DNA from: Archaeoglobus veneficus SNP6
Lineage (GTDB): Archaea > Halobacteriota > Archaeoglobi > Archaeoglobales > Archaeoglobaceae
Assembly (NCBI RefSeq): GCF_000194625.1
Contig: NC_015320.1
Span: 496,001 to 560,000 of the forward strand
Direction of reading: 5' to 3'
DNA: 64,000 bases
The notes below the pieces were generated by a model. The model was not told the DNA's origin, did not search any database, and saw only the letters and a program-made list of their open reading frames with translations. The stretch's first letter is position 1. Each line of letters opens with the position of its first letter. Made by a program: the position numbers and the translations under genes. Below are positions 39,458 through 44,941 of the stretch, in pieces.

Positions 39458-40966
39458 TTAAGAGAAGAAGTCGAGGGTGACTTCCTTCCCCTTCGACTTT
39501 TTCTTCCTTCGCTTTTCTCTTCTTTCTCTTTTCACCTTTTCTTCTGTCTCTTCCTCGCTCTCATCTCCTTCTTCGCTAACAACTTCGATAAGCTTTTCTT
39601 CTTCCGCTTCGGCTGCCGTAGCAAGCTCTTCTTCTCTCTCGAGCATTTCAAACGCTGTGAGGAAGCTCTCGTCCTCAACTCTGTGGAGCCTGTGCTCTTT
39701 TACATACTTCATAATCTCCTTTGCTCTCTCCTCGTCACCAGTAATGAACTTGATGTCGTCTTCACTGAAATCGTAAAAAGCAGCAACACTTGCAGCAATC
39801 GGGATTTCGGTCTTTGACAGCAGGAATTTGATGGTGAAATACATTTCCGTCGAAGCTTTCTTCTTCGAAAGGTGGGAATAGCGACCAATCTTTGCGAGGA
39901 TTGTCTTCATTTTCTCTCTTCTCTGCCTGCTCGCAGCAAGCATCTGCCATATTGCCGGTCTTCGATAGCGGGTGAAGCCCCTTCTTGCCTCCTTCTTCAC
40001 CTGCTGCACACCAGCAGTCATGAGGTACGTGGCGTACTTCCACAGCCTGTAGAACTGCCTCCTTCTGACCCTTCCGAGGAATATGTCGGCTCTCGAAAGG
40101 ACGAGGTATCCCTTCAGGAGGTCTTCTCCGCTGTACTCAAGTGGGAGATTTTCATCTATCCAGTTTATGAAATCGTCGGGCGATTCGTCCAGGAGCATCG
40201 CCTCGCTGTAAACTGCCGAACTCGTGGTTTTGAAGATCTTCTGCATTACCTTGAAAACGTCAGTCTCCTGGGTTCTTTTTGCTGTTACGACATCTTCAAC
40301 TCTTATCTCAGTCTTCCCTTCTGCAATCGCCTGAAGGTCGTTTATCGCCGCTCTCAAATCTCCTCCAGCGTTCCTCGCTATCGATTCGAGCGCCCTTCTG
40401 TCCGCCCTGATTCCTTCTTGGGCGCAGATTCTTTCGAGAACTGCTACAACTCTCCTGACATCGAGACGCCTGAAAGTAATCATCTCACAGAGGTTTCTCA
40501 GCTCTGCAGAGAGATTGTAGGGTTCGTTTGCAGTGAGAATTATAGGCTGCCTCGGTTTCTTCTTGAGCAGCCTGATAAGGGCTCCTTCTCCACCAGCATC
40601 TTCCTTTTTGTGAATGTTGTCAACCTCATCGAGTATGATCAGTTTGAGCCTACCCTGTCTGATGGAGAGAAACTCTCCTTCATCGCTTATCGTCTCACTG
40701 AACGCTCCCTCTCCAACTATATGATAGATTATCCTCCAGTTCCTCTGATCGCTGGCGTTAAGCTCCACAACTTCCCATCCGAAGGTGTTGGCTATGGCGA
40801 GCGCAAGGGATGTCTTGCCGGTTCCCGGAGGACCGGCGAAAAGCAGGGGCTTTTGAACTATACCTTTTTCCCAGTTCTTCGCCCACGTAACGACTTTCTC
40901 CAATACTTTCTTATCCGCAACCACGTCCTTTATCGTCTTCGGCCGGTACTTCTCAACCCAGAGCAC
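39458..40966 (-). CDS. rfcL: Replication factor C large subunit
   Basis: 502 residues. Walker A is AGPPGTGKTS (44-53), Walker B IILDEVDNI, and sensor LTANEPYNL. AAA+ clamp-loader domains run to about 340; the C-terminal 80 residues are highly charged (long E and K runs). The extreme end KEVTLDFFS resembles a PCNA-interacting PIP box. With RfcS it loads PCNA onto primed DNA. It lies downstream of the phosphoesterase gene (21-nt gap), so the two are probably one operon. Confidence 0.95.
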   Translation of the reverse strand: MLWVEKYRPKTIKDVVADKKVLEKVVTWAKNWEKGIVQKPLLFAGPPGTGKTSLALAIANTFGWEVVELNASDQRNWRIIYHIVGEGAFSETISDEGEFLSIRQGRLKLIILDEVDNIHKKEDAGGEGALIRLLKKKPRQPIILTANEPYNLSAELRNLCEMITFRRLDVRRVVAVLERICAQEGIRADRRALESIARNAGGDLRAAINDLQAIAEGKTEIRVEDVVTAKRTQETDVFKVMQKIFKTTSSAVYSEAMLLDESPDDFINWIDENLPLEYSGEDLLKGYLVLSRADIFLGRVRRRQFYRLWKYATYLMTAGVQQVKKEARRGFTRYRRPAIWQMLAASRQRREKMKTILAKIGRYSHLSKKKASTEMYFTIKFLLSKTEIPIAASVAAFYDFSEDDIKFITGDEERAKEIMKYVKEHRLHRVEDESFLTAFEMLEREEELATAAEAEEEKLIEVVSEEGDESEEETEEKVKRERREKRRKKKSKGKEVTLDFFS

Positions 40967-40987: not shown

Positions 40988-42133
40988 TTAAAAGGGTTTG
41001 GCTTTCGCAGGATATTCCCAAGCTATCAGTCTCGATATTAAATCCCTGACTCTTCTCTCAATTTCTTTCGCAGCTTTTCTACACTCATCCAGATTTTCCG
41101 GACTCTTGACTTTCCAGTACTCGTCTGCATTCACATCTTCATCAAAGGATACTACGAGATCGAAGTCCTCGCCTTCGGGAAGCTTCTTTGGCCTTCTGTC
41201 CGAATTTAAGCCAAGTTCAGCAAGTAGAGCTTTTGCAGAATCGTCTATCCTCTCCGCCGGCTCCAGTCCCGAGCTTACTGCGAGCATGTTGTGAGGAGAG
41301 AGCCTGTTGAACAGCGCTTCAGCTATCTGGGTTCTGCAGGCGTTTCTTCTGGAAACGAAGAGTATCTTCTTGGGCTTAGCTATCCTGCGGTATATGTCCA
41401 CGGACTCAGGAACAGTTGTATGGATGCTGTACTCGCCTATCTTCACCTCTCCGTAATCGACGAATTTGAGTGTTAACGAGATTTTGTCGTCTTCTATCTC
41501 TATGATGTTGTAGTTGTGATCGGGCATGCCGAGGATTTTGAAGGAGCCGAGAGAGCCAGCATGTATTATGTGCGTCCTCATCAGCCTTATGGAGTATGGC
41601 ATGTGGCGGTGACCGGCAAGCACGAAGCTGACACCGTTCCTTATGAGCAGTTCGACCATCTCCCCAGCATCAATCAGAACGTTCCTCTCCCTTCCTGTCT
41701 CCGGAATCGGCACGATGTGGTGGTGCAGGGCTATTGCGTTGATCTTTCCCTTCTTTATGTTCCCTTCAATCCACTCTCTCTGCTCTATCCCAATGTGTCC
41801 CTCGTCGATGTCTGGCTGGGTGCTATCCGCCGTTATCAGCCTGAAATCCTCGAAATCGAGAACTTTCTTCGTCTTTCCAAAGTAAAGCTTGAAGTACTCG
41901 TAACCTATGTTTCTCGCATCATGGTTGCCGGGCAGCGCAACGAACTCGGGCGTGAGGTTGGACAGCTCCTCGTAAGCATCCCTCATTTCGTGGTGAGTCC
42001 CCCAGCATGTTAAGTCACCGGTTATTATGACTAGGTCAGGGTCCATCTCGTTTATCTGCCTTACAGCCTTTCTGACCTTATCTCTAACGAGCTCTTCACC
42101 AAAATGAATGTCTGAGATGTGAACGATCTTCAT
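40988..42133 (-). CDS. Metallophosphoesterase fused to a low-molecular-weight phosphatase/ArsC-like domain
   Basis: 381 residues from ATG 42133. Residues 1-245 are a calcineurin-like phosphoesterase with all ligand motifs: D8 and H10 (SDIH), GD at 39-40, GNHD (69-72), HHH near 137-139 and GHRH (174-177). Residues 254-381 match the LMW protein tyrosine phosphatase/arsenate reductase fold (KKILFVSRRNACRTQIAEAL). The catalytic Cys of the CX5R loop is replaced by Ser261, while C266 and R267 remain. The second domain is therefore probably not a phosphatase by the usual mechanism. Upstream of rfcL. Confidence 0.88.
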   Translation of the reverse strand: MKIVHISDIHFGEELVRDKVRKAVRQINEMDPDLVIITGDLTCWGTHHEMRDAYEELSNLTPEFVALPGNHDARNIGYEYFKLYFGKTKKVLDFEDFRLITADSTQPDIDEGHIGIEQREWIEGNIKKGKINAIALHHHIVPIPETGRERNVLIDAGEMVELLIRNGVSFVLAGHRHMPYSIRLMRTHIIHAGSLGSFKILGMPDHNYNIIEIEDDKISLTLKFVDYGEVKIGEYSIHTTVPESVDIYRRIAKPKKILFVSRRNACRTQIAEALFNRLSPHNMLAVSSGLEPAERIDDSAKALLAELGLNSDRRPKKLPEGEDFDLVVSFDEDVNADEYWKVKSPENLDECRKAAKEIERRVRDLISRLIAWEYPAKAKPF

Positions 42134-42244: not shown

Positions 42245-44941
42245 ATGCTTTCCCAGCAGGTCCTCGAAGCTCTGAAGCATGCAGGAATTGAAAAGCTCAG
42301 CAGGTTGCAGGAGGAGGCGGCGAAAAGAGTACTTGAAGGAAGGAACCTGCTCATAATAGCTCCCACAGGCTCTGGAAAAACGGAAGCTGCAATAACCCCC
42401 ATTCTGCAGCGGATGGTTGAGGAGAGACCAGAGGGTATAGCTCTCGTCTACATAACCCCGCTGCGAGCCCTCAACCGTGACATGCTCCGCAGGCTCAAAG
42501 CTATTGCCGAAGAACTCGGCTTTAAAATTGCCGTAAGGCACGGCGATACGAGCCAGTCCGAGCGATCAAAGCAATCCAGAAAACCTCCCCACATCCTCGT
42601 AACGACACCCGAAACCCTTCAGATTCTGTTTCTCGGAAAGAATCTCAGGAATGCTTTGAAAAACGTAAGATACGTTGTCGTTGATGAGGTTCATGAGCTT
42701 GCAGACAGCGAGAGGGGTATACAGCTCAGCGTTGCCCTTGAAAGGCTTAGGGAGCTTGCGAGATTCCAGACTATCGGCCTTTCCGCAACAGTAAGCAATC
42801 CAAAGAGGATTGCAGCCTTCCTTGGTAGAAATGTGGAGGTAATTGAGGGCGGAGAGGAGAAGCTCTACCAGTACGAGGTTGTAAAGCCGGAAGTTTGCGA
42901 AGAGGACTCAAAGCTTGCAGAAGAGCTGTTCGTTGATGCCGAAATAGCTGCACAGCTCAGACTTATCAGGGAAATTGCTGAGAAACACACGTCCGCTTTA
43001 ATCTTCGTCAATACCCGCCAGACCGCCGAAGCTCTCGGTTTGAAGCTGAAAAAGCTATTAAGCGTTGAAGTTCACCACGGATCTCTGTCGAAGGAGGCGA
43101 GGATTGAGAGCGAGAATAGATTTGCCAGAGGAGACCTCAAAGCCCTGATCTGTACATCCTCCATGGAGCTCGGTATAGATATCGGCCACGTCGATGTCGT
43201 TATCCAGTACAACAGCCCGAGGCAAGTTTCGAGGCTTATCCAGAGGGTTGGCAGGAGCGGGCATAAGGCTGGCAAAGTTTCGAAGGGCTGTATAATTGCC
43301 TCGAGCTTCGACGAAATCCTTGAGTCGTGGGTAATCGTCAAAAGGGCTGAGGAGGGGCTGATAGAAGACGAAACGATGCACGTGATGAGCCTTGACACCC
43401 TCGCAAATCAGATAGCTGCCATAGCCCTCGAATATGGCCGGATTAGGGCTGAAAAGGTCTATTCGATTATAAGACGGGCGTATCCCTACAGGGGTTTGAG
43501 CTACGAGAAGTTCGTTGAGATATGCGAGTTCCTCGCAGACGGGAACGTAATTGCCTTCGACGGCGAGGAAATAGCGCCTTTGAGAAAGACGAGGAGGTAT
43601 TTCTACGACAACATATCGATGATTCCCGATGAGAAGCACTACAGGGTCGTTGACATCACGACGGGTAAAACGATAGGTGTTCTCGACGAGAGCTTCCTCT
43701 CAACCTTCAGCGGTGAAGTATTTGCCATGAAAGGCGAGCTCTGGAGAGTTGTATCCGTTGATGACGTCGTAAAAGTTGAGCCTGTGGCAAAAGAGGGTGA
43801 TATCCCGTCGTGGGCTGGCGAGGAAATTCCTGTACCCTACGAAGTTGCCCAGGATGTTGGCTTGCTCCGACTGTGGATTGCAAACATGCTGAGGAACGAA
43901 GGCAGAGAGGAGACCATCAAAGCTCTTATGGAGAAGTTCAGAACGAACAGGGCTGCATGCCTGGAGGTTTTTGACGTAATCGAGGAGCACATAAAGAACT
44001 TCGAAGTGTCTTCTGACAGGCATATAACCATTGAATCGTCGGGCGGGGTGGCAATCATCAACGCCTGCTTCGGGCACAGAGTAAACGAGGCACTCGGTAG
44101 AATCGTGGCAATGCTTCTGTCTGCAAGGAGGGGCAGCAACGTTGCCGTTGAGATCGACCCATACAGGATAAAGCTCTCGCCCGCAAGGGCAGAAGAAGTT
44201 AAAGAAGTTTTGCTTTCGATAGATAGCGATGCGGTTGAATGGCTTGCGGAAAGGGCTTTGATTGACACGAAGCTCCTGCAGTGGAAGGTAATCAACGCTG
44301 CGAGGAAGTTCGGATACCTGAGCAAGGATGCTGATTTGAGCAGGATGAACCTCAGAAACCTCGTTTTGAGGCTAAAGGACACGCCAATATACAGCGAGGC
44401 GGTCAGGGAAATATTTGTCGAGAGATTCGATGTTGAAAGGGTAAAAGAAATCGTCTCAAAGCTTGGAAGTGAAATTGGCATCTCTGTTTACGGCAGCCTG
44501 AGTCCTATCTCTCTCGTTCCGAGGCAACAGGCCTTCGACCTGCTAATGCCATCAAAGCCTACAGAAGCGATTCTTGCTGTTTTCAGGAGGAGACTCGACG
44601 AGGAGTTCTGCATCCTCCACTGCCTTAACTGCGGTTGCACGATTCGAGAAAGGGTAGGCTCTATAGATGAAGTCAGGTGTATTAGGTGCGGATCTAAGCT
44701 CGTCGCATGCGTAAACGCGAGGAGGAGCATCGAGGAGTTCAAAAAGGAGGAACTCTTCAGGATCGCAAATCTCGTGATGAGCTACGGCAAAAAGGCCGTT
44801 TATGCGATGAACACCCACGGCGTTGGGGCTGAGAACGCTGCGAGGATACTTGCAAGGTTTTATCCAAGCGAAAGAGACTTTTTCCTGGAACTGCTGGAGG
44901 CGGAGAAAAGGTACATCAGGACGAGGAAGTTCTGGGATTGA
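42245..44941 (+). CDS. lhr: Lhr-family DEAD/DEAH helicase
   Basis: 898 residues from ATG 42245, near-leaderless behind a TATA-like tttttaaaaa at 42209. Walker A is APTGSGKTEAA (39-49), box II VVDEVHEL, motif III LSATVSN, and motif VI QRVGRSGHKAG. The C-terminal part has the winged-helix and Lhr-Core regions, then a zinc-ribbon-like Cys set (HCLNCGCTIRE, VRCIRCGSKL). Lhr enzymes are ATP-driven 3'-5' DNA or RNA-DNA helicases linked to repair. The longer upstream frame (to 42155) is not family-like. Confidence 0.93.
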   Translation: MLSQQVLEALKHAGIEKLSRLQEEAAKRVLEGRNLLIIAPTGSGKTEAAITPILQRMVEERPEGIALVYITPLRALNRDMLRRLKAIAEELGFKIAVRHGDTSQSERSKQSRKPPHILVTTPETLQILFLGKNLRNALKNVRYVVVDEVHELADSERGIQLSVALERLRELARFQTIGLSATVSNPKRIAAFLGRNVEVIEGGEEKLYQYEVVKPEVCEEDSKLAEELFVDAEIAAQLRLIREIAEKHTSALIFVNTRQTAEALGLKLKKLLSVEVHHGSLSKEARIESENRFARGDLKALICTSSMELGIDIGHVDVVIQYNSPRQVSRLIQRVGRSGHKAGKVSKGCIIASSFDEILESWVIVKRAEEGLIEDETMHVMSLDTLANQIAAIALEYGRIRAEKVYSIIRRAYPYRGLSYEKFVEICEFLADGNVIAFDGEEIAPLRKTRRYFYDNISMIPDEKHYRVVDITTGKTIGVLDESFLSTFSGEVFAMKGELWRVVSVDDVVKVEPVAKEGDIPSWAGEEIPVPYEVAQDVGLLRLWIANMLRNEGREETIKALMEKFRTNRAACLEVFDVIEEHIKNFEVSSDRHITIESSGGVAIINACFGHRVNEALGRIVAMLLSARRGSNVAVEIDPYRIKLSPARAEEVKEVLLSIDSDAVEWLAERALIDTKLLQWKVINAARKFGYLSKDADLSRMNLRNLVLRLKDTPIYSEAVREIFVERFDVERVKEIVSKLGSEIGISVYGSLSPISLVPRQQAFDLLMPSKPTEAILAVFRRRLDEEFCILHCLNCGCTIRERVGSIDEVRCIRCGSKLVACVNARRSIEEFKKEELFRIANLVMSYGKKAVYAMNTHGVGAENAARILARFYPSERDFFLELLEAEKRYIRTRKFWD

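Follow-up and report, generated by a model that had tools for sequence, protein, structure and literature searches.

Pseudophosphatases are well documented in eukaryotes. In STYX the P-loop Cys is replaced by Gly, and in MK-STYX the nucleophilic Cys is lost with a Ser in its place, the fold being kept as a regulatory module (PMC9464862). These proteins are the nearest concept to the gene described here, which joins a calcineurin-like phosphoesterase (MPE) domain to a degenerate LMWP/ArsC domain, in that a P-loop Cys is replaced while the fold is retained. However, STYX and MK-STYX are eukaryotic, belong to the dual-specificity superfamily and lack an MPE. We found no paper on a pseudophosphatase of the LMW-PTP/ArsC fold fused to an archaeal phosphoesterase, and in the open literature none was found on MPE-LMWP fusions, on archaeal LMWP pseudophosphatases or on pst-linked archaeal MPE or ArsC genes. 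With the LMW-PTP/ArsC family (PF01451; A. fulgidus ArsC, 1y1l) the second domain shares the fold, the position of the loop, the P-loop Arg and the W...P loop frame, but it has Ser for Cys, is devoid of the DP-loop Asp and the redox Cys, and is joined to an MPE. The first domain has all metal-site motifs of the GpdQ/Rv0805/CpdA-type MPEs (PF00149), whereas the fused protein belongs to a halobacteriotal family of its own and has an extra C-terminal domain. The stand-alone MPEs of halobacteriotal pst operons are orthologous to this N-terminal domain (about 40-46% identity); unlike the fused protein they have no LMWP domain, and they often lie among pst genes.

The fused gene is located on the minus strand at 40988..42133 of the window, that is, the whole stretch of 64,000 nucleotides of Archaeoglobus veneficus SNP6 that was analysed. 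Its open reading frame starts with an ATG at 42133 and encodes 381 amino acids followed by a stop codon. Residues 1 to about 230 form the MPE domain (41444..42133, minus strand) and residues 255 to 370, approximately, the LMWP/ArsC-fold domain (41024..41371, minus strand). In the first of these, PF00149 matches residues 1-179 with an E-value of 4e-21. The earlier note had stated that this domain keeps every metal ligand, and indeed D8, H10, D40, N70, H71, H137-139, H175 and H177 are all present and are invariant in the 16 of 16 fused sequences that cover them, the motifs DxH / GDx / GNHD / H / GHxH being found in every fused orthologue that extends over them. The best PDB matches of the MPE domain are the phosphohydrolase 2dxl/2zo9, which we take to be GpdQ, and Rv0805, both ahead of SbcD. 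Because the MPE fold is not preceded by an N-terminal extension, the fused protein is probably cytosolic. Matches to anti-phage models (NCBIfam, PADLOC) were weak, covered only part of the MPE fold and fell far below the NCBIfam cut-offs, and such a role was rejected.

The assignment of the second domain to the LMW phosphatase/ArsC proteins, also made in the earlier note, was confirmed by Pfam (PF01451 LMWPc at residues 257-335, E-value 7e-10, above the gathering cut-off) and by its best solved relative, the A. fulgidus arsenate reductase 1y1l (E-value 4e-14). An AF2 model of this domain was good (pLDDT 84.1, 11 sequences), and a Foldseek search with it again gave 1y1l as the best match (E-value 9e-9), followed by other ArsC/LMW-PTPs. 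Among the matches were two engineered proteins, 1jf8 (ArsC C10S, C15A) and 4kk4 (YwlE C7S, with a phosphorylated active-site Ser). Both structures show that the LMWP fold tolerates a Cys-to-Ser replacement, and 4kk4 shows that contact with phosphate is still possible for a Ser in the nucleophile position. The AF2 model of the whole protein (pLDDT 60.6, 6 sequences) was too poor for reading the domain geometry.

Compared with stand-alone relatives, in which the catalytic loop reads FVC-x-x-N-x-x-R-S, the fused domain has FVS261-R-R-N-A-C266-R267-T, so that the remnant of the P-loop, V260-S261-R-R-N-A-C266-R267-T268 (41330..41356, minus strand), carries Ser261 where the nucleophile Cys would be. 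As the earlier note had inferred from the single gene, the catalytic cysteine is thus lost, and both the fusion and the Cys-to-Ser change proved to be common to all fused orthologues. Ser occupies this position in 17 of 17 of them and in two decayed second copies of the gene, while each of the 30 stand-alone LMWP/ArsC proteins read from the class has the nucleophile Cys. No fused orthologue with an intact Cys exists among the 17, which rules out a sequence error or a private mutation. The Ser261 codon is TCN in 15 genomes and AGC in G022 and G023, consistent with either two independent Cys-to-Ser changes or a single change followed by a codon switch. The loss extends beyond the nucleophile. 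In the DP loop (W-x-x-x-D-P) the W and P are kept in nearly all fused proteins, whereas K, S, R, T, V, L, P or A, never an acidic residue, stands in place of the Asp; among the 30 stand-alone LMWPs, 26 have Asp at this position and 4 have Asn. Moreover, the fused domain has Phe or some other residue instead of the ArsC redox Cys behind the 'VTV' strand. Since the nucleophile of the CX5R motif, the DP-loop Asp and the redox Cys are all gone, the fused C-domain is shown, at the residue level, not to be a phosphatase or arsenate reductase.

The earlier note had further drawn attention to the remaining C266-R267 pair as a possible phosphate-binding element. Of the two residues, Arg267 is retained in 16 of the 17 fused proteins; Cys266 is retained in 14 only (two genomes have Ala and one has Leu), so that they are not conserved as a pair. 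In G022 and G023 both Cys266 and the loop residue N264 are replaced. The fused protein of G033 (L056:212-1246) has a broken P-loop (VSKDHNLSS), no Arg267 and a shortened C-domain.

A search of 59 genomes of the class found the same fusion in 17 of them, which belong to 7 genera and without exception to Archaeoglobaceae; two of these orthologues are incomplete, that of G006 being cut by the contig end and that of G028 being split over two contigs. Outside this family, in a set of 394 genomes of the phylum, the MPE half occurs solely in stand-alone form, with a usual length of about 245-280 amino acids; beyond Halobacteriota, the search for fusions was a pattern scan that reaches close relatives. 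In the MPE tree the fused proteins form a single clade (100/100), whose sister group consists of stand-alone MPEs from a neighbouring family (98/95); at this node two long branches meet, according to a warning of the program. The LMWP-domain tree likewise contains a single fused clade (SH-aLRT 99), which the tree, weakly resolved here, does not place inside the pst-linked ArsC clade. Based on this one fused clade in either tree, the fusion is of single origin. The two decayed copies, with stops or frameshifts and with the loop Ser still readable, are additional to the fused gene in G022 (L048:5663-6766) and G031 (L052:5583-6689).

To judge how the two halves evolve, we compared dN/dS in close pairs with unsaturated dS. 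The ratios are mostly about 0.05-0.1 for the LMWP part and about 0.02-0.06 for the MPE, which means that the LMWP domain evolves roughly two times faster than the MPE domain. By these ratios the LMWP domain is not drifting but is kept by purifying selection. A catalytic residue that is lost throughout the lineage, in a fold that is kept under selection, is the mark of a pseudophosphatase, and the view that the second domain is a lineage-wide pseudoenzyme domain is therefore strongly supported by the alignments and substitution rates. The possibility that the C-domain is a decaying passenger without function would agree with its faster divergence, with the partial deletion in G033 and with the decay that has struck the extra full copies of the gene in G022 and G031. 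Nonetheless, we regard it as very improbable in view of the low dN/dS in close pairs and of a reading frame that stays open to the end, in all 7 genera, in every fused orthologue whose contig covers it.

Clues to the function of the fused gene come from the stand-alone relatives of its two halves. PstC/PstA permease genes lie within 5 kb of 27 of the 44 stand-alone MPE loci examined, a set that consists mostly of best-scoring matches and not of a random draw, and that includes related, non-independent genomes. The typical order is PstS-MPE-PstC-PstA-PstB-PhoU, with genes abutting or overlapping (the identities of PstS, PstC, PstB and PhoU were verified on representatives). The pst-linked loci come from 7 families, the class-level relative f3 among them; stand-alone MPE genes in pst operons were recorded at L059, L060, L103, L105-L107, L111, L113-L115, L118, L123-L129, L131, L138 and L140. 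A comparable picture is seen for the other half. In at least 9 genomes of Archaeoglobaceae (G001, G022, G024, G026, G027, G028, G031, G048 and G051) a stand-alone, Cys-bearing LMWP/ArsC gene resides in a pst operon, where it overlaps or abuts PstB and/or PhoU; catalytic proteins of the 1y1l family beside PstB/PhoU are found at L173, L174, L175, L176, L185, L186, L187, L190 and L192. The G001 protein matches 1y1l, which suggests that this 'arsenate reductase' structure belongs to a phosphate operon. The pst-operon LMWP/ArsC may handle arsenate that enters via Pst, or may have another phosphate-related role. As the stand-alone forms of both are linked to pst, the two families that were fused are recurrent phosphate-operon genes. 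The linkage also provides a lead to the function of a widespread, unnamed halobacteriotal MPE family.

It should be noted here that no pst linkage is seen for the MPEs of family f2, which are the closest stand-alone ones. Their gene overlaps a 2-phosphoglycerate kinase gene (L057:5084-6046, L058). The kinase was detected over the cut-off in no Archaeoglobaceae genome, and the 2-phosphoglycerate kinase/cyclic 2,3-diphosphoglycerate pathway is therefore unlikely to be the source of a substrate for the fused protein. The fused gene itself neighbours pst genes in no genome examined and was not found to be a member of a pst operon there. Thus, the phosphate link of the fused gene is one to which the relatives of each half point.

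Our preferred reading, to which we assign a probability of about 0.5, is that the fused gene encodes a phosphate-linked phosphoesterase of the cytosol whose second domain is non-catalytic and may bind phosphate, regulate or act in docking. The N-terminal calcineurin-like domain, whose metal site is complete, is predicted to hydrolyse a phosphate ester or diester, and the MPE would act in phosphate homeostasis. The C-domain, a module without catalysis that selection has preserved, may bind inorganic phosphate or a phosphorylated ligand through Arg267 and the Ser-containing loop or, alternatively, provide an interdomain or partner docking surface; in this manner it could tune the MPE to the phosphate status. 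Phospho-binding by the C-domain is plausible because Arg267 is so widely kept, yet it would not be universal, since G033 has neither an intact P-loop nor Arg267. A narrower version, in which two enzymes of phosphate operons were fused and the ArsC/LMWP half became a dead sensor of Pi or a phospho-ligand that controls the phosphoesterase half, is rather doubtful as it stands. If the C-domain does sense phosphate, this would represent a route by which phosphate status is coupled to a cytosolic phosphoesterase in archaea.

Other roles for the domain or the gene have to be weighed against this reading. The C-domain could be purely structural, serving the MPE in dimerisation, stability or as a substrate-channelling cap without any ligand of its own. 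This would fit its persistence, though shortened, in G033 despite the broken P-loop, the replacement of Cys266 and N264 in G022 and G023, and its faster divergence relative to the MPE. Since the conservation of Arg267, and of Ser261 through two codon classes, suggests that the loop is still constrained, we consider a purely structural role possible but on the whole unlikely. Ser261 might also act as a slow nucleophile that forms a stable phosphoserine, as a phospho-relay or trap with some catalysis kept. A Ser that is fixed in every copy and the phosphorylated active-site Ser in the YwlE C7S crystal (4kk4, according to its title) speak for this, but the loss of the DP-loop Asp in all fused proteins makes turnover unlikely and the loop is broken in G033, so that there is little chance of this being correct.

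A role in DNA metabolism was suggested in the earlier note on the basis of the operon with rfcL. That rfcL (replication factor C large subunit, NF003234, 830 bits; 39458..40966, minus strand) adjoins the fused gene is real: it follows the latter on the same strand after a gap of 21 nt. In addition, an Lhr-type DEAD/DEAH helicase gene (Pfam DEAD, DEAD_assoc and WH_Lhr; 42245..44941, plus strand) is located divergently upstream. Taken together, these neighbours would be compatible with a DNA replication or repair factor, a nuclease or phosphatase co-transcribed with rfcL. However, neither rfcL nor the helicase lies beside the fused gene in any of the other genomes examined, and the neighbourhood comparison revealed no neighbour gene common to the fused loci across Archaeoglobaceae. 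Furthermore, the stand-alone MPE relatives sit with Pst/PhoU, and the best solved relatives of the MPE are of the GpdQ and Rv0805 type with SbcD behind. Because the rfcL adjacency is private to the genome of the window, we dropped the hint of a DNA-related role, and such a factor now appears very improbable.

Besides the fused gene, the genome of the window has a single stand-alone LMWPc gene, whose product retains an intact Cys loop (FVCVQNTCRS). Stop-containing LMWP remnants in G014, G046 and G043 (L193, L194 and L195, respectively) were rejected as fused genes, as they carry the Cys and resemble decayed stand-alone LMWPs.
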